Shown: in pieces, positions 1 to 21,865 of the stretch
Numbering within the stretch: the stretch's first letter is position 1
Layout: the number at the start of each line of letters is the position of its first letter
Source of the DNA: a virus
Virus record (IMG/VR): IMGVR_UViG_3300025162_000163
Location: 1-26,251 of that record
Strand: one strand, 5' to 3'
DNA: 26,251 bases
Translations under genes and position numbers: made by a program
Notes under the pieces: model-generated
Told to the model about the DNA's origin: nothing
Seen by the model: the letters and a program-made list of their open reading frames with translations, nothing else
The model's database searches: none

Positions 1-318
1 TGATGCCGGAGCCGCTGTAGCCGCTGATGCCCGAGCCGCTGTAGCCGCTGATGCCAGAGCCGCTGTAACCGCTGATGCCCGAGCCGCTGTAACCGCTGAC
101 GCCCGAGCCGCTGTAACCGCTGACGCCCGAGTATCCACTGTATCCGCTGATGCCGGAGCCGCTGTAGCCGCTGATGCCGGAGCCGCTGTAGCCGCTGATG
201 CCGGAGCCGCTGTAGCCGCTGATGCCAGAATACCCGCTATAACCGCTGATGCCCGAGCCGCTGTAACCGCTTATGCCGGAGCCGCTGTAGCCGCTGATGC
301 CGGAGCCGCTGTAGCCTG
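1..318 (-). repeat. 24/27-nt tandem array A in fibre gene
   Basis: Thirteen head-to-tail units inside the fibre gene. Eleven are 24 nt long, encoding GYSGSGIS or near variants, and two are 27 nt (121-147 and 220-246), encoding three full Gly-X-Ser triplets. The units at 148-171, 172-195 and 196-219 are identical. Unit length is a multiple of three, so gain or loss of units keeps the frame. The array may continue past the left edge. Confidence 0.93.
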
Positions 319-2485
319 AGTCACCACTAATTCCGTCTTGACCTGAAAATCCAGAATAGCCTGATTGACCATCTTGACCAGAATAGCCACTAAAACCGCT
401 TGTGCCGATTCCTGAGTAGCCAGAATAACCGCTTGCGCCATCTTGACCAGAAAATCCTGATATTCCAGACCAGCCGCTAATTCCTGAAAAGCCAGACTGT
501 CCATCAATACCGCTATAGCCAGAAGTTCCACTTTCTCCAGAGTACCCAGAGATGCCGCTAAATCCTGAAAGCCCATCTTGACCTGAGTAACCGCTAAATC
601 CAGACAATCCATCTTGTCCAGACCAACCAGAGAATCCTGAATAGCCACTATCACCTTGGATAGATTCGCCTGAATAGCCTGAATAGCCTGAGAAGCCGCT
701 ATAACCACTTATACCGCTTCCGCTGTAACCTGAAAACCCTGAGATACCGCTATTCCCAGAATAGCCGCTAATGCCGCTATAACCTGAAATTCCTGAATCA
801 CCAGAATATCCAGATATTCCTGAATCTCCACTAAACCCTGAAATACCGCTAAACCCTGATTGACCATCAATTCCAGAAAATCCAGACCAACCGCTTATAC
901 CGCTAAAACCTGACCAGCCAGATACACCGCTACCAGAAAACCCTGATATACCGCTATCGCCTGAATACCCTGAAATTCCAGAGAAACCGCTTATGCCGCT
1001 ATCGCCACTATATCCAGAGATACCAGAAAATCCACTAAATCCTGAATAACCAGAATCGCCTTGTGGGCCAACTATAGGGCCAGCATTAAACCAAATAGAG
1101 CCATCCCATACATAAAGATCACCATCGGATAAAACAATGTAGGCATCATTTAAATTGCCTGTAGGGGGAAGATCGGCTGGAGTAGCAACTGATCCAACAA
1201 TATTAATTGATGTACCTTGCTGACCGCTTATGCCTGAAAAACCGCTGTAACCGCTTATGCCGGAGCCGCTGTAACCGCTGATGCCGGAGCCGCTGTAACC
1301 GCTGATGCCGGAGCCGCTGTAACCGCTGATGCCGGAGCCGCTGTAACCGCTGATGCCGGAGCCGCTGTAACCGCTTTTGCCCGAGTATCCACTGTATCCG
1401 CTGATGCCAGAATACCCGCTGTAACCGCTTTTGCCCGAGTATCCACTGTATCCGCTTTTGCCCGAGTATCCACTGTAACCGCTTATGCCGGAGCCGCTAT
1501 AGCCGCTAAATCCGCTATAACCAGATATGCCCGAACCACTATAACCTGATATGCCTGAATAACCTGAAATGCCTGACCAGCCAGAATATCCGCTATAGCC
1601 GATTTGCCCATCCATACCGGAATAGCCGGAATAGCCGGAATATCCTGATACAGCAATTCCTGAATAGCCTGATATGCCGCTATAGCCGCTATAGCCTGAT
1701 ATGCCTTGCCCTGCCAGTTTGGTAAAATTAATAGGCGTGAAATTGATAAAGCCCGTTTCAGGAACGATGGCAACCCACCCTGAATTGGCATTCACGTTGC
1801 CATTGATAATGAAAGTGAAAGCACCGGGCACTTCAGCCCATATGTCCATATCCAGTGAGCGCGCCCATGCGCCCGCTGCCGCTACATAAATTCCGTTGTA
1901 ATTGGCGTTGTTTTGATTTTTAACCAGCACCCGGTCATTGGCTAATGTCGTATAACCATCAATCGTTTGAAGCCCGGACAAGGTGATATTGCCGTCAGCA
2001 GGAGAAGTGGCGCACTGACATTCGGCTTTAGGCGTAAAACCGATGATAAGATTATCGACGTAATTTTTATTGACAAGATCAGTGGGGTTTACAGGTATGG
2101 TATCTACTTGCCCAGTAGTGGTGTGCATATTGTTGAAATATGCAGAGAGCAACCCTGACAATAGCTGCGGCACCTGAATGAAAGCGTTAGCTGTGCCTGC
2201 TGTCATTAAATTGGTTACAAAATCACCACGATTCCATGCCTGAGCCGGAGTTCCTTCCTGCCCGCGCATAACAGTGAGCGCATCGCCCGCTATATGGGTG
2301 CAATATACAATTTCAACAATCAGGCTATTGGTGGATTTGACAAGGGTTAATACTACAGCTTGCCCCGCGCTAGGGGCAGGAAAAAGAGCACCAGTACCAC
2401 TCGCCACATAAATAATTGTATCTGTATTGGCGACAGGAAGCGCTAAAGTAGTCTGCGCCTGATTCTGAAAAAGAAGCAACGACAT
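1..2485 (-). CDS. Collagen-like Gly-X-Ser tail fibre, 3' end beyond window
   Basis: Long reading frame starting at ATG 2485 and open to the left edge (at least 828 codons, no stop), so the C-terminus is missing. Residues 1 to about 105 resemble the N-terminus of the fibre at 2770-4785 and are probably the baseplate anchor. About residues 150-255 look like a common phage fibre beta domain (TIDGYTTLANDRVLVKNQ). From residue 261 the protein is almost entirely Gly-X-Ser or Gly-X-Asp triplets with X = Tyr, Ile, Phe, Trp, Gln, Asp or Lys. This run is interrupted at about residues 430-475 by a module found beside phage collagen repeats (VATPADLPPTGN, DLYVWDG, GPQGD). The start overlaps the upstream stop as TAATG. 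The repeat region contains almost no proline, unlike typical collagen-like fibres. Role inferred: trimeric fibre carrying a distal receptor-binding tip outside the window. The frame is certain; the fold is not. Confidence 0.88.
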   Translation of the reverse strand, partial: MSLLLFQNQAQTTLALPVANTDTIIYVASGTGALFPAPSAGQAVVLTLVKSTNSLIVEIVYCTHIAGDALTVMRGQEGTPAQAWNRGDFVTNLMTAGTANAFIQVPQLLSGLLSAYFNNMHTTTGQVDTIPVNPTDLVNKNYVDNLIIGFTPKAECQCATSPADGNITLSGLQTIDGYTTLANDRVLVKNQNNANYNGIYVAAAGAWARSLDMDIWAEVPGAFTFIINGNVNANSGWVAIVPETGFINFTPINFTKLAGQGISGYSGYSGISGYSGIAVSGYSGYSGYSGMDGQIGYSGYSGWSGISGYSGISGYSGSGISGYSGFSGYSGSGISGYSGYSGKSGYSGYSGKSGYSGYSGISGYSGYSGKSGYSGSGISGYSGSGISGYSGSGISGYSGSGISGYSGSGISGYSGFSGISGQQGTSINIVGSVATPADLPPTGNLNDAYIVLSDGDLYVWDGSIWFNAGPIVGPQGDSGYSGFSGFSGISGYSGDSGISGFSGISGYSGDSGISGFSGSGVSGWSGFSGISGWSGFSGIDGQSGFSGISGFSGDSGISGYSGDSGISGYSGISGYSGNSGISGFSGYSGSGISGYSGFSGYSGYSGESIQGDSGYSGFSGWSGQDGLSGFSGYSGQDGLSGFSGISGYSGESGTSGYSGIDGQSGFSGISGWSGISGFSGQDGASGYSGYSGIGTSGFSGYSGQDGQSGYSGFSGQDGISGDSGYSGSGISGYSGSGISGYSGSGISGYSGYSGISGYSGSGISGYSGSGISGYSGSGISGYSGYSGVSGYSGSGVSGYSGSGISGYSGSGISGYSGSGISGYSGSGI
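1255..1506 (-). repeat. 24/27-nt tandem array B in fibre gene
   Basis: Ten units of the same family as the array at 1-318. Four consecutive identical 24-nt units occupy 1279-1374, and four 27-nt units occupy 1375-1482, encoding GYSGYSGKS or GYSGYSGIS. The sequence between the two arrays encodes the same kind of triplets with diversified codons and lower GC, so the arrays look like recent amplifications within an older repeat gene. Confidence 0.93.
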
Positions 2486-4793: not shown

Positions 4794-5648
4794 CTAATAA
4801 GTTACAGCCCAGTTATACTGAAATGGCAACTGCACAACTTGCGAGCTTACAAAAGATTGCAAGGTGGCTGCCAGTGAGGTATCCATAGCCCCCGCTAATA
4901 TCTGAATTGTTGCATTATACGAAGAAGGCGTCGGAAAAAGTATGCTTACTTGGTAAGCATTAACCCCATCTATATCGGTCTGATATGGGTCAGTTCCATT
5001 TATTCCAGACAAAAAGCGCACTGTTCTTCTTTTCAGCCAATTGATGTTAAATTGGTATCCGTCGCCTTTATAAAAATTCCAAGTTATTACCCGTTTATAT
5101 ATGTCGTCAGAGGCTAGTTCCACCACATTTGTTATAAACCCTTCCGTTGTCACTACGCCGGGATTAGCCGCTAAAGCATAAGTAAAGGAATGAGGCCCGG
5201 TAGAAGTGAATACAAAATTGCCATTATACCCGCTCGGTTCCACACCTTGAATATTCCCTGAAGATAAACCCGTTAAATTATAGATTGAAGCAACGGTTAC
5301 AGTTACAACGCCTGAACTCCAAGTCATTGAAACTATTGGTATTTGTGTACTTGTAACAATTCCTTCGTTATAGGGAATCGTATCATAGATAGAAGTGTCA
5401 TACACGCCTTTGCTAAGACTTGATGTCCCCGTAGTAATGTAAGGGCGCGGGATTCCATAAAGACTATTGCCCACCCAATCCAGTAACACGCCGGTAATTG
5501 CCGATGAAGTATAAATTGGCAACTTGAGGCTATTAACCGCGTCTAAATAGCCTTGAGAGGTACTATTATAAGCCGTGAAAAACGCTTGTAAGTCGGGGTC
5601 TGAGCCATACTGTTGATAAAGATAGCTTGGCAGCGTAGTGGTTATCAT
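4794..5648 (-). CDS. Baseplate/tail protein I-like, with inserted beta module
   Basis: Encodes 284 residues, and the ATG overlaps the stop of the J-like gene as ATGA. The opening (LPSYLYQQYGSDPDLQAFF), followed by LLDWVGNSLYGIPRP, resembles baseplate proteins that follow gpJ in contractile tails (P2 I or DUF2612-like) and that connect the wedge to tail fibres. About residues 103-173 form a beta module also found in the J-like protein and in the sheath. After it come a helical segment (DDIYKRVITWNFYKGDGYQF) and a C-terminal part ending in LPFQYNWAVTY, so the core appears split by the module. Position directly between J and the fibres supports the assignment. The exact family is inferred. Confidence 0.7.
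   Translation of the reverse strand: MITTTLPSYLYQQYGSDPDLQAFFTAYNSTSQGYLDAVNSLKLPIYTSSAITGVLLDWVGNSLYGIPRPYITTGTSSLSKGVYDTSIYDTIPYNEGIVTSTQIPIVSMTWSSGVVTVTVASIYNLTGLSSGNIQGVEPSGYNGNFVFTSTGPHSFTYALAANPGVVTTEGFITNVVELASDDIYKRVITWNFYKGDGYQFNINWLKRRTVRFLSGINGTDPYQTDIDGVNAYQVSILFPTPSSYNATIQILAGAMDTSLAATLQSFVSSQVVQLPFQYNWAVTY
5130..5342 (-). other. Beta-module copy in I-like protein
   Basis: Encodes about residues 103-173 of the I-like protein. The hallmarks are an IVSMTWSSGVVTVTVAS start, a GVEPSGYNGNF turn, a GPHSFTYALAANPGVVT segment and a closing hydrophobic strand. It aligns by eye with three other copies, two in the J-like gene and one in the sheath gene. It lacks the usual PHG motif after the first strands (SIYNLTG instead), so it is the most diverged copy. 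Confidence 0.75.
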
Positions 5649-7528
5649 GCCTGTGTAACCGTTATATTAGATGAATTGGTTACAAAATAGGATTGTGGAT
5701 CGCCATAATATAACCCCGTAGTTACGGCAGGAGCCACGGTCACACCATTAATGACTACCGTGAAATTGATTTCAGATATGAACTGAATAGGCACTAATGT
5801 GGCTATGGATTGCTGGAATATGGCCTGCATTTCATACTGGTTAATCGGCTGCCCAACCGTTATCCCGTTAATATAGTTGGATATTGCAACACTGGCGGCT
5901 GTAGCTACTGAAATGGGCGATACATAATTGGTCGCAATCGTATTCCACAGAATTGTTATATTTACTAATTGCGAAAGCGGATTGATAAACGACACATTAT
6001 AAGTGTTGGGGTAGTTATTAATGGATACCGTAACATTCCGCAGATTAGGCGTCACTATGCCATTACCCGTATAAGCCGCAAGGCTGGTGCTATCAAAAGG
6101 CGTATAGCCCAATACTGTAACCGCGCCGGGATTGGTTGCCAATGGATAACTGAATGAATTGGCGGATATGTAAGTGAAAGTCACGCCTGACACATTGTAT
6201 CCCGATGGCGTTACACCATAGATAGACCCTGTAACTGTTCCACTTGTCAGCCCCATAGGTGTAGCCGTAACCACTGTTACGACACTTGCCGCCCAAGTGA
6301 GCGATACAATTTCCACATTAAGGCTAAAACTATTAATGCTGTTCACTACAGCCACATAAGGAACTTCTGTGGATACCACGCCTTTAATGGTTACAGCGCC
6401 GGGATTAGAAGCCAAAGGATAAGTGAAAGTGCTGGTGCCCGTTGAAGTAATGGTAAAGGTGCCATTATATCCATTAGGTGTAACACCTGCGATTAAACCT
6501 AAAATTTTTGCGCCTGATGCAACGCCATGCGGCGTAGCAGTAGTTACGGTAACAACGCTTGACGCCCAAGTCATCGTACTTATGACAATGCCCGCTGTGC
6601 TGTTAATGCTGGTCAACCCCGTAGCCCCGCTAATATAAATCACTTGCCCTGTTGTAAAGCCATGTGTCAAATTGGTGGTTACAACAGCGGGATAGGCATT
6701 GGTGAGTGTGGAAGCTGAAAGAGTGGAGCCTATGACATTGGATATGTCAAACAAGCTAGTAAATATGGCATTAGCGATCTGATAAGGATCGCCGCCTCCG
6801 CCGCACATGACTTGCCAGTTAGTGCCGGATTGGGAGATAGCCACAAGATTATCCTGCACTCCCGACACATTCTGAAGCTGTGTTTTCAAGAATGACGGCA
6901 TTCCTTGAGCTACGGCTTGGCCTGCTTGGATGACTTGAGCCTGATAGCTTTGTATTGTCTGTGCTGTGGCCCCTGCTGTGCCCGGTGTGAGGTTAGAACA
7001 GGAGAGGTTAATGCCGCCCGGTACAGAGGTAATAATCGTCGTTACGGTGCCTTCTGGTACTGCCCAAGAACCGGCTTTTGTGGCGAGGCAGAATAATGCC
7101 GAACTTTGACCGCCCGAGCCTATAATACCGCCGTCCTGCACAACGTATTGATAGATACCGTCCGATACTACAAAACCGATGGGGATTACAAACCCCGGTG
7201 TTCCCGTAGGATTAAGCAGAGTGATGGTGGAAAAGGTTACATAAACCGAAGTATTGGCTCCGATACCTTGGGTGACCCCATAAACAGCCCCTAATTGATA
7301 AAGGATAAATGCGTTAGCCGTATAGGGGCTAATGGAATTAATCAAGTCCACATAGGCTTGATCTATAACCACTACTGCGCCTGCCGCGGTTGAGGCCATA
7401 TCTTCAACCAAGGAGCCGGGGAGATTAGCGGTTAAACCCGGTGACAAGGCTGTTGCCGCCGCAACTTCGGCATTTAGTAAATCTTGAGGGCTGCTAGGAA
7501 CCGCGCCAGCACTGGTTAATGTCGCCAT
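5645..7528 (-). CDS. Baseplate J-like protein with nested beta modules
   Basis: Encodes 627 residues from ATG 7528, with an AAGGA ribosome-binding site five bases upstream. Residues 1-255 carry baseplate J features: SPQDLLNAEVAAATALSPGL, PGSLVEDMASTAAGAVVVID, a TPGFVIPIGFVVSDG beta arm, and PGTAGATAQTIQSYQAQV, similar to the P2 J / T4 gp6 wedge region. The C-terminal part (about 495-627) with VNITILWNT, VSPISVATAASVAISNYIN and QPINQYEMQAIF also fits J proteins. Between them, about 276-494 is an FCCH-like beta domain (PAVVTTNLTHGFTTGQVIYISG ... FSLNV ... DSTSLAAYTGNGIVT) interrupted twice by a different beta module. I count only four Lys and one Arg. Known role of the family: wedge assembly around the hub and triggering of sheath contraction. 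Confidence 0.86.
   Translation of the reverse strand: MATLTSAGAVPSSPQDLLNAEVAAATALSPGLTANLPGSLVEDMASTAAGAVVVIDQAYVDLINSISPYTANAFILYQLGAVYGVTQGIGANTSVYVTFSTITLLNPTGTPGFVIPIGFVVSDGIYQYVVQDGGIIGSGGQSSALFCLATKAGSWAVPEGTVTTIITSVPGGINLSCSNLTPGTAGATAQTIQSYQAQVIQAGQAVAQGMPSFLKTQLQNVSGVQDNLVAISQSGTNWQVMCGGGGDPYQIANAIFTSLFDISNVIGSTLSASTLTNAYPAVVTTNLTHGFTTGQVIYISGATGLTSINSTAGIVISTMTWASSVVTVTTATPHGVASGAKILGLIAGVTPNGYNGTFTITSTGTSTFTYPLASNPGAVTIKGVVSTEVPYVAVVNSINSFSLNVEIVSLTWAASVVTVVTATPMGLTSGTVTGSIYGVTPSGYNVSGVTFTYISANSFSYPLATNPGAVTVLGYTPFDSTSLAAYTGNGIVTPNLRNVTVSINNYPNTYNVSFINPLSQLVNITILWNTIATNYVSPISVATAASVAISNYINGITVGQPINQYEMQAIFQQSIATLVPIQFISEINFTVVINGVTVAPAVTTGLYYGDPQSYFVTNSSNITVTQA
6101..6310 (-). other. 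Beta-module copy 2 in J-like protein
   Basis: Encodes about residues 407-476. It starts IVSLTWAASVVTVVTATPMG, has the GVTPSGYN turn and ends YPLATNPGAVTVLG. It sits between the FSLNV strand and the DSTSLAAYTGNG tail of the interrupted FCCH-like domain. It has PMG where other copies have PHG. Confidence 0.8.
6368..6589 (-). other. Beta-module copy 1 in J-like protein
   Basis: Encodes about residues 314-387. It starts with STMTWASSVVTVTTATPHG and contains GVTPNGYNGTFTITSTGT and YPLASNPGAVTIKG. By eye about 40 of 69 residues match the sheath copy, with recognisable nucleotide similarity (both contain ccatgcggcg and a closely similar 22-base stretch over the YNGTFTIT codons). It lies between the SINST segment and the VPYVAVVNSINSFSLNV strand of the FCCH-like domain. 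Confidence 0.82.
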
Positions 7529-10174: not shown

Positions 10175-10782
10175 TGCCCACTCCAACTAGCGCCTAAAGT
10201 AGTGAATGTTGGAAGCCCTTGAGTAATACTATTCATAACGCCGCCTAAAACCGATGAAAACTGACTTTCGGAAATCAAAGGTTGTACAAAATCCCATTGG
10301 TACATGAGTTGTACTTGCTTATCGCTAGGGCTGCTTACGTCCCTGAGATTAGTCAATAAACAGTTTGTATATGTATATGCCGGGGTAATCACCGTGAAAG
10401 TACCACCGGATATAATATGGATATTTATTTGTGTTTGTAACGCGGTCATAATAGATCGTTTCAAGATATATCCACCTTCAGTCTGCGCGGGGCACACCAT
10501 TAACAAACTGATCTTCAAAGGCTGTTGAATAACTGCATTAGCCGCTACTTGAAGGCTGGCAAATGGATATTCTGCTACTTGAAAATCCGCCAATGTACTT
10601 CCGGGTAACGGTTTGTAGTGTGCAAAAAATTCTCCGTTTTCAATCCCCGGGATATCAAACATTTCCGTCAACACCGTGATAGGCAATAATTGACCGGGTA
10701 TAGATTGCGCTAATCCACCTTGTAAAATAATAGGCGATATTTCATAGGCTAATTGAAAAGTAGAAAACCCTAACGAACTCAT
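10171..10782 (-). CDS. Baseplate/tail structural protein after tape measure
   Basis: Encodes 203 residues, coupled to the tape measure gene by TAATG and to the plug gene by ATGA. It is mainly beta structure (AYEISPIILQGGLAQ, QLLPITVLTEMF), with a helical middle (EGGYILKRSIMTALQTQI) and a C-terminal YQWDFVQPLIS strand. No enzyme motif or membrane segment. In contractile-tail phages the gene after the tape measure often encodes a tube-to-hub adaptor or a LysM-type gp53/Mup46-like protein; I see no clear LysM motif. I therefore call it a baseplate component by position only. Confidence 0.68.
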   Translation of the reverse strand: MSSLGFSTFQLAYEISPIILQGGLAQSIPGQLLPITVLTEMFDIPGIENGEFFAHYKPLPGSTLADFQVAEYPFASLQVAANAVIQQPLKISLLMVCPAQTEGGYILKRSIMTALQTQINIHIISGGTFTVITPAYTYTNCLLTNLRDVSSPSDKQVQLMYQWDFVQPLISESQFSSVLGGVMNSITQGLPTFTTLGASWSGQ

Positions 10783-12794
10783 TATGCGTATCCTATAACG
10801 GGATTCATCGCCTTAATTTGCGTAATAATGTCTGCGCCAGTTGCTACATTTACTTTGAAATCCAATGTGGTGCTTACATTAACATTCGGCGTTTGCATGA
10901 AAGAAGGCGTATTTGATTTATCAAGTACATTTTTAGTTTGGTTAGCCCCATTAGCATTGCCGCTATATCGAGATAATTCTTGCATATCCATTTTCGGGGA
11001 TTCATAAGCGTTCATAAAATCAAAATCATCGGGGGGCTGCAAATTGAACATATCATATTCTTTCAAATTTTCTGGCATAACAAAGCGTGAAAGCGGATGA
11101 TTTGGGTATTTAAACTTACCATTATTCATGTTCTTTAAGAAATTACTGGTTTCATTAGGTATTTTAGAAACATCATGCACACGTCCTGTTTTATCCGTAT
11201 AGTTTGAAGCGCCGCTAAGGAATAGTTCTAAATCGTGCGGATTCCAGTTCCATGCCGCTAATGCTTTTTCTACATCGCCATTAAAACGTTTTAAGTTTTC
11301 TTTTAGTAATTTTACAGCACCTTCTGTTGCGCTTTTCATGTTAAACGGATTAGTAACACCTAATGCTTTTGAGGTGTCCGGCATAAGCTGAAACGGGCCT
11401 TGAGCGCCACTCTTAGATAACAGATGTTTGCCGTGCCCTGATTCCACATTATATAGCTGATTTAATATACCTTCAGGGAGGTCATTCGCAATTTCCGTGC
11501 GTTTAAAATATGCTTGCAATTCTGGCTCTTTTATAACTTCGCCCGAATCATAGTGCGGGCCAGTTTTTTCTAGCTCATGTATAGCCGCTATTTCTTCAGC
11601 TTTTTTCTGGCTTTTTGTTTTATATCCGGTAATGCCTGCTATCCATTTAGCTGCATCACCTACAGCCTCAGCTATATCAGCCACAGCGTTAAGAAAATCG
11701 TCCAGTGTTTTCTTAAAGTCATCACCACTTAAATAAATAGCGAAGGATTTAATGCCTTCGCCAAAAGAGGTTAGCCATTCTTTTAAGTGGGGGTTTTTAA
11801 GGAAGGCTTTTATAGCCTCTCCTATAGCTATAGCCAAATCACCTAATGGCCCTGTTAAATCATTTAGTCCTGTTATAAGAGTCAGTTCAATACTTTTACC
11901 TGCAACTTCCAGATTTTGCTTAAAGGTTTGCCATGCCCGATCTAATTCATCTTGTGTCTTAAATTCTTCATTGCCTCTATGAAGATTATCAATGAACTTC
12001 TTAAATTCTTCCTCGGTCAGATTTCCAAGCCTTCGTATATCCTCAAATTGTGCAAGCTGAGTAGCGCCTGTAGCTTCAATGATGGCTTGCTGACCGTGGT
12101 ATTTTTGATATATGCCCCTTAGCTGAGTAGCGACTTCCGGCAAAAGTTCAGCCGCATTTTTGCCTTTACTTTCCTTGACACCTATCCGCGCAAGAATAGG
12201 CTGCTTTCTAATATCACTTTGAATATCGGCTAAATTACCTAGAAGGCTATTAACATCAAAATAGCGTTCACCATAAATTTGAGCAGAACGGTATTGTCCG
12301 GTAGTGATACCAAGTCCTTGCGCGGCGCGGCGATCAGAACTTACCGCTGCGGCTAAAGCCCCCAAGCCAAACCCGCTAGCGATTGCGCCAAACGTTAGCC
12401 ATTTGGCTGCGGATACGGCGGTATCCGCCATATCTTTAGCTATTCGTGTGGTGATTTTTGCTACATTGACAAGCCCTACATGCCTATCACCAAGCACTTT
12501 ATTAAAATCTTTTCCGCGCTTGGATTCGGCTTTGTTGTTTTTATCTTCTTTGGATGCAGCTTTTTCAGCTTCTTTATTAAAATCTTTTTGGCGCTTGGAT
12601 TTGGCTTTGTGGTCTTTATCTTCTTGGGATGCAGCTTTGGCTTCAGCTTTTTCAGCTTCTTTTATTTCCTTAGCTATGTTCTTCCATTGCCCCGGCATAG
12701 CTTCAAGGATGCTTTGGAGTTTAAGCATCTGCTCATTGAAAGCTTGGAACTTCTCGTCTAATAAATCTATTTCGATAATGGATTTTGTAGCCAT
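10782..12794 (-). CDS. Tape measure protein with lytic transglycosylase domain
   Basis: Encodes 670 residues; ATG 12794 follows an AAAGGT site. Residues 1-100 are a charged helical region with a 25-residue tandem repeat. About residues 130-150 are a hydrophobic segment (AAKWLTFGAIASGFGLGALA), typical of tape measures. Helical stretches follow, with another hydrophobic segment at about 310-355. About residues 430-525 form an SLT/goose-lysozyme-like domain: LPEGILNQLYNVESG with probable catalytic Glu451, SKSGAQGPFQLMP at 461-472, and AAWNWNP at 513-519, where many relatives have A-Y-N-A-G-P. By the usual ~1.5 angstrom per residue, 670 residues predict a tail near 100 nm. Role: sets tail length and opens peptidoglycan at DNA entry. 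It follows the frameshifted chaperones, as expected. Confidence 0.9.
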   Translation of the reverse strand: MATKSIIEIDLLDEKFQAFNEQMLKLQSILEAMPGQWKNIAKEIKEAEKAEAKAASQEDKDHKAKSKRQKDFNKEAEKAASKEDKNNKAESKRGKDFNKVLGDRHVGLVNVAKITTRIAKDMADTAVSAAKWLTFGAIASGFGLGALAAAVSSDRRAAQGLGITTGQYRSAQIYGERYFDVNSLLGNLADIQSDIRKQPILARIGVKESKGKNAAELLPEVATQLRGIYQKYHGQQAIIEATGATQLAQFEDIRRLGNLTEEEFKKFIDNLHRGNEEFKTQDELDRAWQTFKQNLEVAGKSIELTLITGLNDLTGPLGDLAIAIGEAIKAFLKNPHLKEWLTSFGEGIKSFAIYLSGDDFKKTLDDFLNAVADIAEAVGDAAKWIAGITGYKTKSQKKAEEIAAIHELEKTGPHYDSGEVIKEPELQAYFKRTEIANDLPEGILNQLYNVESGHGKHLLSKSGAQGPFQLMPDTSKALGVTNPFNMKSATEGAVKLLKENLKRFNGDVEKALAAWNWNPHDLELFLSGASNYTDKTGRVHDVSKIPNETSNFLKNMNNGKFKYPNHPLSRFVMPENLKEYDMFNLQPPDDFDFMNAYESPKMDMQELSRYSGNANGANQTKNVLDKSNTPSFMQTPNVNVSTTLDFKVNVATGADIITQIKAMNPVIGYA
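12501..12650 (-). repeat. 75-nt tandem repeat in tape measure gene
   Basis: Two adjacent imperfect 75-nt copies (12501-12575 and 12576-12650) encode 25-residue charged helical repeats, each with a KAASxEDKxxKAxSKRxKDFNK core, at about residues 49-98. The unit is in frame, so changes in copy number would alter tape measure length without disrupting it. Confidence 0.85.
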
Positions 12795-13984: not shown

Positions 13985-15301
13985 TTAAACGGGAATGTTG
14001 GACGCGGTTAAGTAGATAGTAATGGAGTTAAAGCCTCTCAACGGTACGAAAGTAACGCTTAATCCATTGTAGATACCCGCTGCATAATCGCTCGGATGCT
14101 GTGCTATATAACTCACAAACGAAATAGCGTTTACAGTGCAAGGTGATAAAATAAGCCCAAAAGATATGCCATTATTCATCAACGCTTGTGCTACTTGCTG
14201 CAAGGAATTAATGCCCGCTTGGTTGTAATACAACGGATTAGTAGGTGTATTGCTGCCGTTGATGATCGCAGCGGATAAAGCAATAGCGGCATTGATGTTC
14301 ACCCAATCCGTTGAATACCAGTAATTGAAGGGGTGTAAATCCATGCACTCACCATTCTCAATCAATGATGTGCTGATTTGCCCTTGCGCTCCAGTACCAA
14401 TCCAGTTCACGCCTATAGCCGCCAGTGTGGTTTGCTGTGCATTGGTCAGAACAGGGGGGATAACCCCATATACAAAAGTGTATTCAAGCGGTGAAGCCAG
14501 ATTGTTAGCCGCAGGATTATAGTTCAGAGTTTGCGCCATAACCGCCGCTGCTGACCACTGAGTTACAGGCGCAGATAAAGCTTCATAAACAATAACCGCT
14601 GCTTTGTTGCCTTCATATGGCCCATATGAATCGGCGTTCATCGGCGTTGTAATATCTTGAACGCTTATGAAGAAATACACTTTCGATGTTGGCGAAGAAT
14701 TAGCCAATACCAGCGCGGGCATCGTAGAATCCGCCGACACTTCTGTGGTAACACAGTATGAATAGAACGGAATTGTGGGGTTAGCCATATATGCTGCTAA
14801 TGCAGTTACCCCCTGCGCCGCAGTACCAATGCCTAATTCCAGCACATAAACTGCGTTACCTGTTCCTTGTGCAAAATAAGTAGTCGCCATAGCGACCAAA
14901 TCTTGTTCTGCTTCTGTAACGTATGTTCCTTGAACGGTAGCTGTTCCGGGGCTGGAAACCAAAGCATAAGTGAAGGTATTAGTACCAGTGGAAGTAATGG
15001 TGAATGTACCGTTGTATGCCGTTGGCGTTACGCCAGAAATAATTCCTAAAAGAGTATCCGTAAGGGGGATACCATGCGGCGAAGCCAGAGTTACAGTAAC
15101 TACGCCTGTATTCCACACCAGAGAAGTTGTAGCGATAGGACTGGAAAGAATAGCAGTCAAATCGCTCATTTGGGTTAAGAGGGCGGTACTCCCCGCGGTT
15201 AGCGCGGTGCCCCCCTGAGTTACAAACGCGCCAGTTCTTTGCAGCGTGGAAGGCGCACTTGCTACCTGTTGGGAAACTACTACATTGACAATATTGGGCA
15301 T
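13985..15301 (-). CDS. Contractile tail sheath protein (DUF3383-like)
   Basis: Encodes 438 residues from ATG 15301. The N-terminus (MPNIVNVVVSQQVASAPSTL) and a C-terminal region (SFGLILSPCTVNAISFVSYI ... PSDYAAGIYNGLSVTFVPLRGFNSITIYLT) fit DUF3383-type sheath proteins, in which terminal strands exchange with neighbouring subunits. A middle domain has VYVLELGIG, SYCVTTEVSAD and a VNWIGTG segment. About residues 58-128 are an extra beta module inserted after the N-terminal strands, probably on the outer surface. I count only two Lys and two Arg in the whole protein. The next gene encodes the tube. Role: sheath that contracts and drives the tube through the cell envelope. Confidence 0.86.
   Translation of the reverse strand: MPNIVNVVVSQQVASAPSTLQRTGAFVTQGGTALTAGSTALLTQMSDLTAILSSPIATTSLVWNTGVVTVTLASPHGIPLTDTLLGIISGVTPTAYNGTFTITSTGTNTFTYALVSSPGTATVQGTYVTEAEQDLVAMATTYFAQGTGNAVYVLELGIGTAAQGVTALAAYMANPTIPFYSYCVTTEVSADSTMPALVLANSSPTSKVYFFISVQDITTPMNADSYGPYEGNKAAVIVYEALSAPVTQWSAAAVMAQTLNYNPAANNLASPLEYTFVYGVIPPVLTNAQQTTLAAIGVNWIGTGAQGQISTSLIENGECMDLHPFNYWYSTDWVNINAAIALSAAIINGSNTPTNPLYYNQAGINSLQQVAQALMNNGISFGLILSPCTVNAISFVSYIAQHPSDYAAGIYNGLSVTFVPLRGFNSITIYLTASNIPV
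14918..15130 (-). other. Beta-module copy in tail sheath
   Basis: Encodes about residues 58-128 of the sheath protein (SLVWNTGVVTVTLASPHG ... GVTPTAYNGTFTITSTGT ... YALVSSPGTATVQG). It matches the first J-like copy at about 40 of 69 positions by eye and shares short stretches of nucleotide identity with it, although sheath and J proteins are otherwise unrelated. Confidence 0.82.
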
Positions 15302-19963: not shown

Positions 19964-20740
19964 TTAGCGTTGATTGTTGGAAAGGTGAAATTCTTTGACG
20001 CGCAATGCCGGTACTTTGAAATCATCCAGCCATGCCGACATAGAGCCACGGAATTTAGTGATAGTGCGCCCGGCCCGATCTTTTTCGTGGACTTCCACCA
20101 GTTGATCAGCGGCAAACATTTGCGGGGCTTTTGCCATAGCATAGGCATCTGCAAAAATTTGCTTTTCCGCCAAGGACAGCAAGGCTTCATCTTTAATGGA
20201 ACCAAGATTGATGCCTTTATAGCTATCGGAATAGCCTTGCAAGCCGCGCAACAGGCGTTTGCGATAAGACATTAAGGTTTCACCTTGCAGGGGACGGGAA
20301 GCGGATTTACCGAAGGAAGCTAAAACGCTATCAGCCTTGGCTTGGCAATCTGCATACATCGCAGCTTCGTCATCAGCTTTTTTAGCTGCCATTTCTTCTT
20401 CTTCTTCATCTTTTTTGACGTCATCATCTTTTTTGGCGTCATCATCATCATCAGGCTTAATTTCGCCAGCAGGCAGTTCTTCTTTACCACCGGCAGCGTC
20501 TTTACGCTTTTTGTCATCATCATCATCGTCGTCATCAGGCTTAATTTCGCCAGCAGGCAGTTCTTCTTTACCACCGGCAGCGTCTTTACGCTTTTTGTCG
20601 GCAGCAGTGACGAGAGGAGGTGCGGGGAGATTTTTTTCCATGCTATCTACGCGGGTGGCAAGAGTGCCAACAGCAGACAGGATAGCGTCGAGTTTTTCAC
20701 CGTGGGCATCTGCCGCGGGCGTATTGGTGTTGTCAGTCAT
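19964..20740 (-). CDS. Nested capsid scaffold from internal in-frame start
   Basis: Probable separate product made from Met376 of the protease gene. Codon ATG 20740 is preceded by AAGAGG at 20754-20749 and an eight-base spacer, a good ribosome-binding site inside the gene. The product would be 258 residues: an N-terminal segment MTDNTNTPAADAHGE, a helix (KLDAILSAVGTLATRVDSMEKNL), two copies of a Lys-rich/poly-Asp unit, and a helical C-terminal domain with YRKRLLRGLQGYSDSY and FADAYAMAKAPQMF. The design copies lambda C/Nu3, in which the scaffold is nested in the protease gene. The acidic helical composition fits a scaffold. Expression is inferred. Confidence 0.65.
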   Translation of the reverse strand: MTDNTNTPAADAHGEKLDAILSAVGTLATRVDSMEKNLPAPPLVTAADKKRKDAAGGKEELPAGEIKPDDDDDDDDKKRKDAAGGKEELPAGEIKPDDDDDAKKDDDVKKDEEEEEMAAKKADDEAAMYADCQAKADSVLASFGKSASRPLQGETLMSYRKRLLRGLQGYSDSYKGINLGSIKDEALLSLAEKQIFADAYAMAKAPQMFAADQLVEVHEKDRAGRTITKFRGSMSAWLDDFKVPALRVKEFHLSNNQR

Positions 20741-21865
20741 ATCAGATACCTCTTGGTTGTTTAATAAAACGCCAGCAGCTTCGCCGCCTTTGTCCCATAC
20801 GCCTTTTGACCCCCTAGCCTTTGTAACAATAGCAATGTGATCCAAAAGAAAGGGTACACCTTCAATCAAGAGCGGATCGCCATTCTCAGTTGTTAGTGTA
20901 ATGTTTCCAGCAGCATTGTCAAATACTACTGATGGGGAAGTGCTAATTTCACCCTCAAGAATCTCGTCAACCGACTCCTGATCGTAAAGTTTTGCTATCC
21001 CCCAAACCTCGTCGCCCTGAATATATGGAAGCATAATACTACCAATAGCCCTATTTTTGAACTCTTTGGAGTCCAAAACAGCAGTTTCAGGGTGATCCAT
21101 CACAACGGTTAAGCCGTTGCAGCGTTTCAAAAAGTCCTCATTCAGATAAAGTGACGGATCGCGCCAGACATGCTCCCCAATACTTGAGCGGAAAGCCAGC
21201 CCGGTGCCGGTAATCCGAATAGCCAAAAGGCAAATATTGGCATATATCTGGGGGCTAGGCATTAACCCTTCCCGCATCAGTTCAGCAATATCATGTTCGG
21301 TTTTAGCCCCGGCAATGCGGAAAGTTACTTCAAGCGCGGGATGCAAGGGCCGGGGTGATTCATCCGGATGGCTCCATACATAACCTGTTGATTCATCACA
21401 AATTGTTACGTCAAATTTCTCAATAGCGCGGGCAATATAGGTGGTGAAATGCCCATCATCGCGGAGTAATTCCAATGGGCCTTCATAATTAAACCCCGTT
21501 TCTTCCAAGGTTTCACGGCGAGCACATTCTTCCAGCGTTTCATCTTCTTCCTGATGCCCGCCGGGAATGGTAAAAGTCCCGGGGAAGTCACAGCTTTGCG
21601 CCCGGCGCAAAAGGAGGGTTTCATTATCCGAAGTCAAAAGCATTATTCCTGCCGCCTTTCTGTCCGGGGCTTCATCGTTTATTTTTTTAACGGTTTCTAG
21701 GAGGCCGTCAATGGCGGGGGTGCTAAGGGGGGTAGGTTCTGGTGGAATAGCATCTTCACCATGTTTAATGAACTTCTCACCCACGGAAGGGGGTATGCCA
21801 AGGGTGCTTTTCCCTGCGGCGGCTGCGTACATGGCGCGTCTTTGGGTTTCTGATTCAAAAGGCAT
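19964..21865 (-). CDS. NUDIX-capsid protease-scaffold fusion protein
   Basis: Encodes 633 residues. Residues 1-35 are a short phage motif (SETQRRAMYAAAAGKSTLGI) seen at the N-terminus of other phage proteins. Residues 70-165 form a NUDIX domain with the box from Gly103 (GHQEED-E109 ... R117-E118-T-L-E121-E122-T-G124-F); only the hydrophobic position after RE is Thr. About residues 205-360 resemble a DUF2213-type head maturation protease, with DHPE (His258) and STSPSV (Ser308/Ser310) as candidate catalytic residues. Residues 376-633 are an acidic, helical scaffold-like region with its own internal start. Portal and Mu F-like genes lie before it and capsid genes after, as expected for a prohead protease. 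The NUDIX part should hydrolyse a nucleoside-diphosphate-linked substrate, unknown here. Confidence 0.85.
   Translation of the reverse strand: MPFESETQRRAMYAAAAGKSTLGIPPSVGEKFIKHGEDAIPPEPTPLSTPAIDGLLETVKKINDEAPDRKAAGIMLLTSDNETLLLRRAQSCDFPGTFTIPGGHQEEDETLEECARRETLEETGFNYEGPLELLRDDGHFTTYIARAIEKFDVTICDESTGYVWSHPDESPRPLHPALEVTFRIAGAKTEHDIAELMREGLMPSPQIYANICLLAIRITGTGLAFRSSIGEHVWRDPSLYLNEDFLKRCNGLTVVMDHPETAVLDSKEFKNRAIGSIMLPYIQGDEVWGIAKLYDQESVDEILEGEISTSPSVVFDNAAGNITLTTENGDPLLIEGVPFLLDHIAIVTKARGSKGVWDKGGEAAGVLLNNQEVSDMTDNTNTPAADAHGEKLDAILSAVGTLATRVDSMEKNLPAPPLVTAADKKRKDAAGGKEELPAGEIKPDDDDDDDDKKRKDAAGGKEELPAGEIKPDDDDDAKKDDDVKKDEEEEEMAAKKADDEAAMYADCQAKADSVLASFGKSASRPLQGETLMSYRKRLLRGLQGYSDSYKGINLGSIKDEALLSLAEKQIFADAYAMAKAPQMFAADQLVEVHEKDRAGRTITKFRGSMSAWLDDFKVPALRVKEFHLSNNQR
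20448..20599 (-). repeat. 68-bp exact tandem repeat in scaffold region
   Basis: Two identical 68-bp copies at 20448-20515 and 20532-20599, with an 84-bp period. They encode a basic-to-acidic unit (DKKRKDAAGGKEELPAGE, then IKPD and an Asp run) twice in the scaffold linker. Perfect nucleotide identity indicates a recent in-frame duplication. Confidence 0.95.
20749..20754 (-). promoter_or_regulatory. Internal ribosome-binding site for nested scaffold
   Basis: On the minus strand AAGAGG is followed by TATCTGAT and ATG 20740, an ideal spacing. It lies within the protease-scaffold gene, where no such site is needed for the full-length protein, which argues for a second translation product. Confidence 0.65.

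Follow-up and report, generated by a model that had tools for sequence, protein, structure and literature searches.

Does the region between residues 276 and 494 of a phage baseplate protein hold a row of small beta domains, or a single domain that has been opened twice to receive others? The question is raised by a gene at 5645..7528 (minus strand) of the 26,251-base virus record IMG/VR IMGVR_UViG_3300025162_000163, which was analysed over its whole length and is called the window here. The gene encodes a J-like baseplate wedge protein of 627 aa, and the region of interest (6047-6703) corresponds to its residues 276-494. The initial annotation had read this region as an FCCH-like domain split twice by one and the same beta module. 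We call the split domain the host and the two modules the guests.

By sequence profile and predicted fold, the protein is a baseplate-wedge (Baseplate J / gp6) protein. Its PHROG profile match was phrog_6, baseplate wedge (E 1.1e-18), and its model matched solved J/gp6 proteins, among them PhiTE 9cuy_R (Z 15.2, 2.5 Å over 172 residues) and T4 gp6 (3h2t; Z 9.2, 4.9 Å over 159 residues). The Pfam family Baseplate_J gave no match to the window J and matched its relatives L009-L011 and L013. Judged by structure match, the C-terminal part of J would correspond to domain III of phage XM1 gp16 and to T4 gp6. The XM1 study describes domain III of the counterpart protein as homologous to part of T4 gp6 and as dimerising between adjacent wedges, each of which holds this protein in two copies (PMC10457771). 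The 9cuy_R alignment covers the model range 209..627 and flanks the FCCH region on both sides, so the FCCH must itself be an insertion in J. This agrees with the complete absence of an FCCH from 9 of 111 distinct regions compared among relatives. The resemblance to E1 enzymes implies no ubiquitin chemistry: a role for J as an E1 ubiquitin-activating enzyme was ruled out, since the protein is a baseplate J by phrog_6 and fold.

In the AlphaFold2 model of the intact protein, the three stretches around the guests come together as one compact domain, as the initial annotation had expected. Piece 1 (6590..6721, minus strand; residues about 270-313) supplies strands 271-275, 282-285 and 295-300. Piece 2 (6314..6367, minus strand; residues about 388-405) is the beta4-beta5 hairpin and supplies strand 391-397 and the start of 400-413, and piece 3 (6035..6097, minus strand; residues about 478-498) supplies strand 490-493. 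Spread over residues 270-494, 73 residues of the model superpose on 75 contiguous residues of human UBA6 (216-290) at 1.2 Å, with 33% identity and Z 12.2. The isolated mouse FCCH domain 2v31 was matched with Z 10.0 and 1.9 Å over 74 residues. Foldseek alone gave UBA6 an E of 0.04 for the J model, so the strength of the host fold match comes from the second aligner and from the sequence evidence. The intact model has a mean pLDDT of 71.7 and a pTM of 0.52, with module 1 near 50 and module 2 about 90; the relative placement of the barrels is therefore not fixed by it.

The sequence evidence also bears on all three pieces. Pfam E1_FCCH (PF16190) matched the window J at residues 281-316 only (profile positions 4-41 of 70) and ended at module 1; because the match is cut there, it scored 21.3 bits, under the cut-off of 29.5. 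In the uninterrupted relatives L009-L011, which come from cultured phages of Pantoea (PdC23), Yersinia and Klebsiella and have the FCCH at the same position in J, profile positions 2-67 of 70 were matched at 50-56 bits. L024, which has a guest at the first site only, reached 42.8 bits in two stretches, over the cut-off. For L012 (Shewanella), whose FCCH is uninterrupted, the Pfam search gave no E1_FCCH match. Trained on 22 uninterrupted relatives alone, a host HMM scored 50.1 bits on piece 1 and 27.1 bits on piece 3, and in both cases none of 1000 shuffles scored as high. Piece 2, with its 18 aa, scored 3.2 bits, which 23 of 1000 shuffles reached and which is not significant alone. It is secured by the structure alignment to UBA6 and because it is contiguous with piece 1 in relatives that carry a guest at the second site only; in L019, for instance, the two form one match to positions 2-69 of the host HMM. 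We regard it as confirmed, at the level of predicted structure and profile comparison, that the stretches at about 270-313, 388-405 and 478-498 belong to a single domain of E1-FCCH fold, interrupted twice.

A search for relatives with fewer insertions found J proteins with none, with one at either site, and with two. J ORFs were collected from four J-query scans in IMG/VR, one scan in GTDB genomes, the module-scan loci and fetched phage records. This gave 284 J ORFs, a redundant set in which one contig may recur under several loci; 257 were parsed and yielded 111 distinct FCCH regions. The other 27 stand in no count (23 lacked an end anchor, several being truncated, and 4 lacked a start anchor); the L067 type, site-2 by eye, is among them. 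With site labels assigned by length and motif, 68 of the 111 regions have an uninterrupted FCCH, 26 a guest at site 2 only, 2 at site 1 only and 4 at both sites, while 9 have no FCCH and 2 fall outside these types. The last two are L267, with a site-2 guest and an insertion within it, and L341, in which a different stretch replaces the FCCH. The contig of L341, with this non-FCCH stretch at the FCCH position of its J, was binned as Nitrospira. In L324, a contig of 26 kb that binning assigned to a Mucilaginibacter MAG encodes a near-identical J with both guests; this is a weak hint at the bacterial host, from binning only.

A module HMM agreed with the site labels in 25 of 26 dereplicated carriers and gave no match in L266. 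Within the region, site-1 matches lay at offset 61 and site-2 matches at 74-82; for site 2 the offset was 152 in proteins that also have module 1, and 197 behind the L267 insert. On a tree of J cores, for which the FCCH region was excluded and near-copies were removed to leave 93 of 122 distinct closed cores, the site-2 state needs at least five changes on well-supported branches (seven at the fewest). Site-1 guests occurred at two distinct points of this tree, and the proteins with both guests formed one clade. In a nested insertion of the form A1-B-A2, the flanking pieces belong to one host domain and an empty host is known; here the flanking pieces form one predicted domain, and empty hosts exist among the relatives.

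The guests themselves lie close to where they had been placed in the initial annotation (residues about 312-387 and 407-476): module matches were found at residues 316-386 and 407-477, and an HMM search agreed. The site-1 guest (6368..6589, minus strand; residues about 314-387; 107 bits with the module HMM) occupies the beta3-beta4 connection of the host, and the site-2 guest (6098..6313, minus strand; residues about 406-477; 98 bits) the beta5-beta6 connection. That the same module was inserted twice holds in part, as the two modules are related; at 56% identity, however, they are members of a family rather than copies of one module. The initial annotation had also taken the inserts for a beta module distinct from the host, and this does not stand. 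When its structure was predicted alone, with 70 related modules, the site-1 module reached a pLDDT of 96.2 and showed strands at 2-9, 12-17, 28-34, 43-49, 54-58 and 71-73, in the same order as the six host strands. Its top PDB match, obtained with this predicted model, was again UBA6 (Z 10.6, 1.8 Å over 74 residues), and the first 37 of the 50 matches listed were E1 FCCH domains. Aligned with hhalign, the module and host profiles gave E 6.6e-13 and a score of 64.8, compared with at most 18.6 for 200 column-permuted host profiles.

On predicted structures and profile comparisons, then, the guests have the FCCH fold, are related to FCCH domains and equal the host in size: FCCH barrels within an FCCH barrel. 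Guests measure 71-77 aa and the host 76 aa, so that a host of about 76 residues accommodates about 145 residues of guest sequence. One other relationship was considered and dropped: the module profile searched against PDB sequences gave four matches, the best of them to the lectin CV39L (6gxs) at E 0.0033 over 15 residues, which we took as chance.

Two other readings of the region would remove the nesting or the kinship. Host and guests might be unrelated small barrels that look alike only through their richness in T, V, S and G. Their composition is indeed biased, and the guests are weak on the Pfam E1_FCCH model: of 71 modules, 9 gave a match with E no higher than 1, the best at 0.005, and the curated cut-off is not reached. 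Within the window, the site-1 module has no E1_FCCH match, and Pfam as a whole gave nothing for the site-1 module or for the further copies in the DUF2612-like and sheath proteins, and weak unrelated matches for site 2. The controls for composition nevertheless oppose this reading, as each of the four modules in the window (the two J guests, the DUF2612-like copy and the sheath copy) outscored all 1000 shuffles on the host HMM, and the column-permuted profiles fell far below the true one. Moreover, a single PHROG profile, phrog_9998, matches a host-only FCCH with its positions 42-101 and a guest with its positions 43-115, and strand order and top PDB match are common to host and guest. We therefore consider chance likeness improbable. 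Still less probable, in our judgement, is that three FCCH-like repeats stand end to end with the short stretches between them as linkers. A tandem array would account for the relatedness of all units and for the matches of the host HMM to every module as well as to piece 1. It would not account for the relatives with a single uninterrupted domain, which have all three pieces in order, nor for those with a guest at site 1 only or at site 2 only, nor for the fit of the 73 dispersed residues to one contiguous E1 domain.

The guests lie in two long loops of the host, the beta3-beta4 connection (site 1) and the beta5-beta6 connection (site 2). The preference for beta-hairpin loops that had been proposed is unsupported: the beta4-beta5 hairpin is unbroken in the window J and was never an insertion site among the regions examined. 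What is supported is a preference for these two particular connections. The only insertion that falls in a hairpin is the additional one of L267 (1500-1820), a 107-aa stretch within the first hairpin of its site-2 guest, which is possibly a further level of nesting. This inner insert belongs to no Pfam or PHROG family and gave no tblastn match in the phage collection; a fibronectin-like identity was dropped, as neither family source returned one. The FCCH may accordingly be both plug and socket, in that two fixed loops take FCCH barrels, a guest can itself be opened, and phages would gain larger tail surfaces by inserting one fold into itself recursively. We put this generalization slightly below even chances.

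The module is not limited to J. A further copy lies in the DUF2612-like neighbour of J (5118..5342, minus strand), recognized by the module HMM and by 50% identity to a J stretch. Another lies in the tail sheath protein (phrog_205) at 14906..15136 (minus strand), again recognized by the module HMM and by 39% identity over a longer J stretch. Most related sheaths that were found have a module at a similar position, and the sheath of L158 has two. Elsewhere in the window, the frame at 10782-12794 (minus strand) presumably encodes a tape-measure protein with a lytic-transglycosylase-like stretch. The long ORF at 19964-21865 (minus strand) combines what we take to be a Nudix-like box in the N-terminal region with central D-rich repeats, which would be an unusual fusion if real. 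The frame at 2-2485 (minus strand) encodes a collagen-like, GYSG-rich repeat protein that continues past the window end.

To follow the history of the family, we used 71 modules below 88% identity to one another: 37 first and 1 second sheath modules, 9 DUF2612-like, 21 from J and 3 others. On their tree, the window site-1 module was nearest to sheath modules, and the window site-2 module grouped with other site-2 modules. This suggested clearly different lineages for the two guests, which we do not claim, as the AU test allows them as a sister pair (p 0.125). A single clade of all 14 site-2 modules was likewise unrejected (p 0.351). Between the window and L005, dN/dS was 0.02 and 0.07 for the guests and 0.054 for the whole of J, so the guests are maintained, like J as a whole. 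A tblastn search of the phage collection gave no match for the site-1 module and matches in 20 records for the sheath module of L122. Very large proteins annotated as baseplate components occur in Synechococcus phage S-MS29 (18229-36573; L343) and Myxococcus phage Mx1 (130008-135785; L342), and in the stretch examined each of these giants gave a single or weak FCCH-like module match.

Taken together, the explanation that we favour, and hold to be very probable as a whole, is that a small E1-FCCH barrel, inserted in the C-terminal part of the wedge protein J, holds two guests with its own fold, and that these have a role at the surface. The data show the split, the predicted folds of host and guests, their kinship, relatives in every simpler state and selection on both guests; the steps that follow are inferred. 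Such a barrel may enter a loop without disturbing the protein around it, and may receive others likewise. The guests would fold independently and give the baseplate a larger outer surface. This surface would be multiplied by the several copies of J per baseplate and by the related copies of the module in the sheath and DUF2612-like proteins, and recombination may carry the FCCH, guests included, from phage to phage.

This last step is compatible with the favoured explanation and touches on how many insertions really occurred. If the FCCH and its guest passed from one J gene to another as a single cassette, few insertions would be needed, and we rate this as an even chance. The repeated changes of the site-2 state on the core tree speak for it, as do two relatives in which the parts of J disagree: the L024 core is closest to that of host-only L073 (0.86) and its FCCH piece 1 to site-2 carriers (0.71), and the L030 core is closest to host-only L248 (0.82) and its piece 1 to the site-2 carrier L019 (0.83). 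Over all 26 carriers, however, the signal is mild, since with near-copies excluded the nearest entry has a module in 22 cases when FCCH pieces are compared and in 19 when cores are; furthermore, piece 1 is short (48 aa) and its sequence may converge near the loop that takes the insertion. Comparison of the L024 and L073 DNA did not show a sharp boundary of insertion, because the two also differ in the host loop. Exchange of the whole FCCH is thus suggestive in L024 and L030 and mild overall. As for what the guests do, our leading guess, held tentatively, is weak, multivalent contact with glycans of the host surface. It is prompted by the K1F endosialidase (3gvj 427-508), which matched the module with Z 7.1 and 2.6 Å over 74 residues, a value below the tool's informative Z of 8. 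The beta-barrel of this enzyme is described as one of three polysialic acid binding sites (PMC12632334), although 3gvj 427-508 may not be exactly that barrel. Among eight J relatives scanned with the corresponding family (PF12195), only L271 matched, weakly (E 0.19). A structural role, in which the guests stiffen or space the baseplate and are not adhesive, is conceivable at less than even chances. The presence of the same module in several tail proteins is in its favour, and stabilisation is offered beside adhesion for extra sheath domains in a study of sheath proteins (PMC9230969); close relatives, however, manage without guests.

Nested proteins are usually visible only as finished products. 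Here the empty state, each single state and the double state coexist in related phages, from which the order, cost and reuse of insertion sites become measurable. A fold named after ubiquitin enzymes emerges as a recurrent, self-compatible building block of phage tails. In practical terms, a profile match that ends in mid-domain can signal a nested relative rather than a fragment.

Among known systems, the E1 FCCH domains (PF16190; human UBA6, UBA1, 2v31) share the fold of both host and guest, with 33% identity between the J host and UBA6 over 73 residues. In the aligned E1 chains, though, the matched stretch is contiguous and guest-free, whereas in J the host is split. The K1F endosialidase beta-barrel (PF12195) bears a weak structural likeness to the J module (Z 7.1). 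The extra beta domains of contractile tail sheaths are similar to J in that beta modules are added away from the tube, but they are Ig-like sandwiches, and the terms 'nested' and 'FCCH' are absent from the text of that study (PMC9230969). In the open-licence literature, judged by title and start of abstract, no description was found of FCCH domains in phage tails or of an FCCH nested in another. Nested architectures are described in a survey of domain insertion (PMC13114784). The recursive nesting of cyanobacterial RNA polymerase Si3 resembles J in having nested insertions, with single hosts holding several, but involves another fold. A P-loop hydrolase with a tRNA-modification insert, known from three proteins, shows a double insertion of one family, like J; unlike in J, its host and guest come from different superfamilies. 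Insertions in that survey were consistently smaller than their hosts, whereas the guests of J (71-77 aa) are about the size of theirs (76 aa) and their states vary among related phages. Nested, even recursive, domain insertion is already known.
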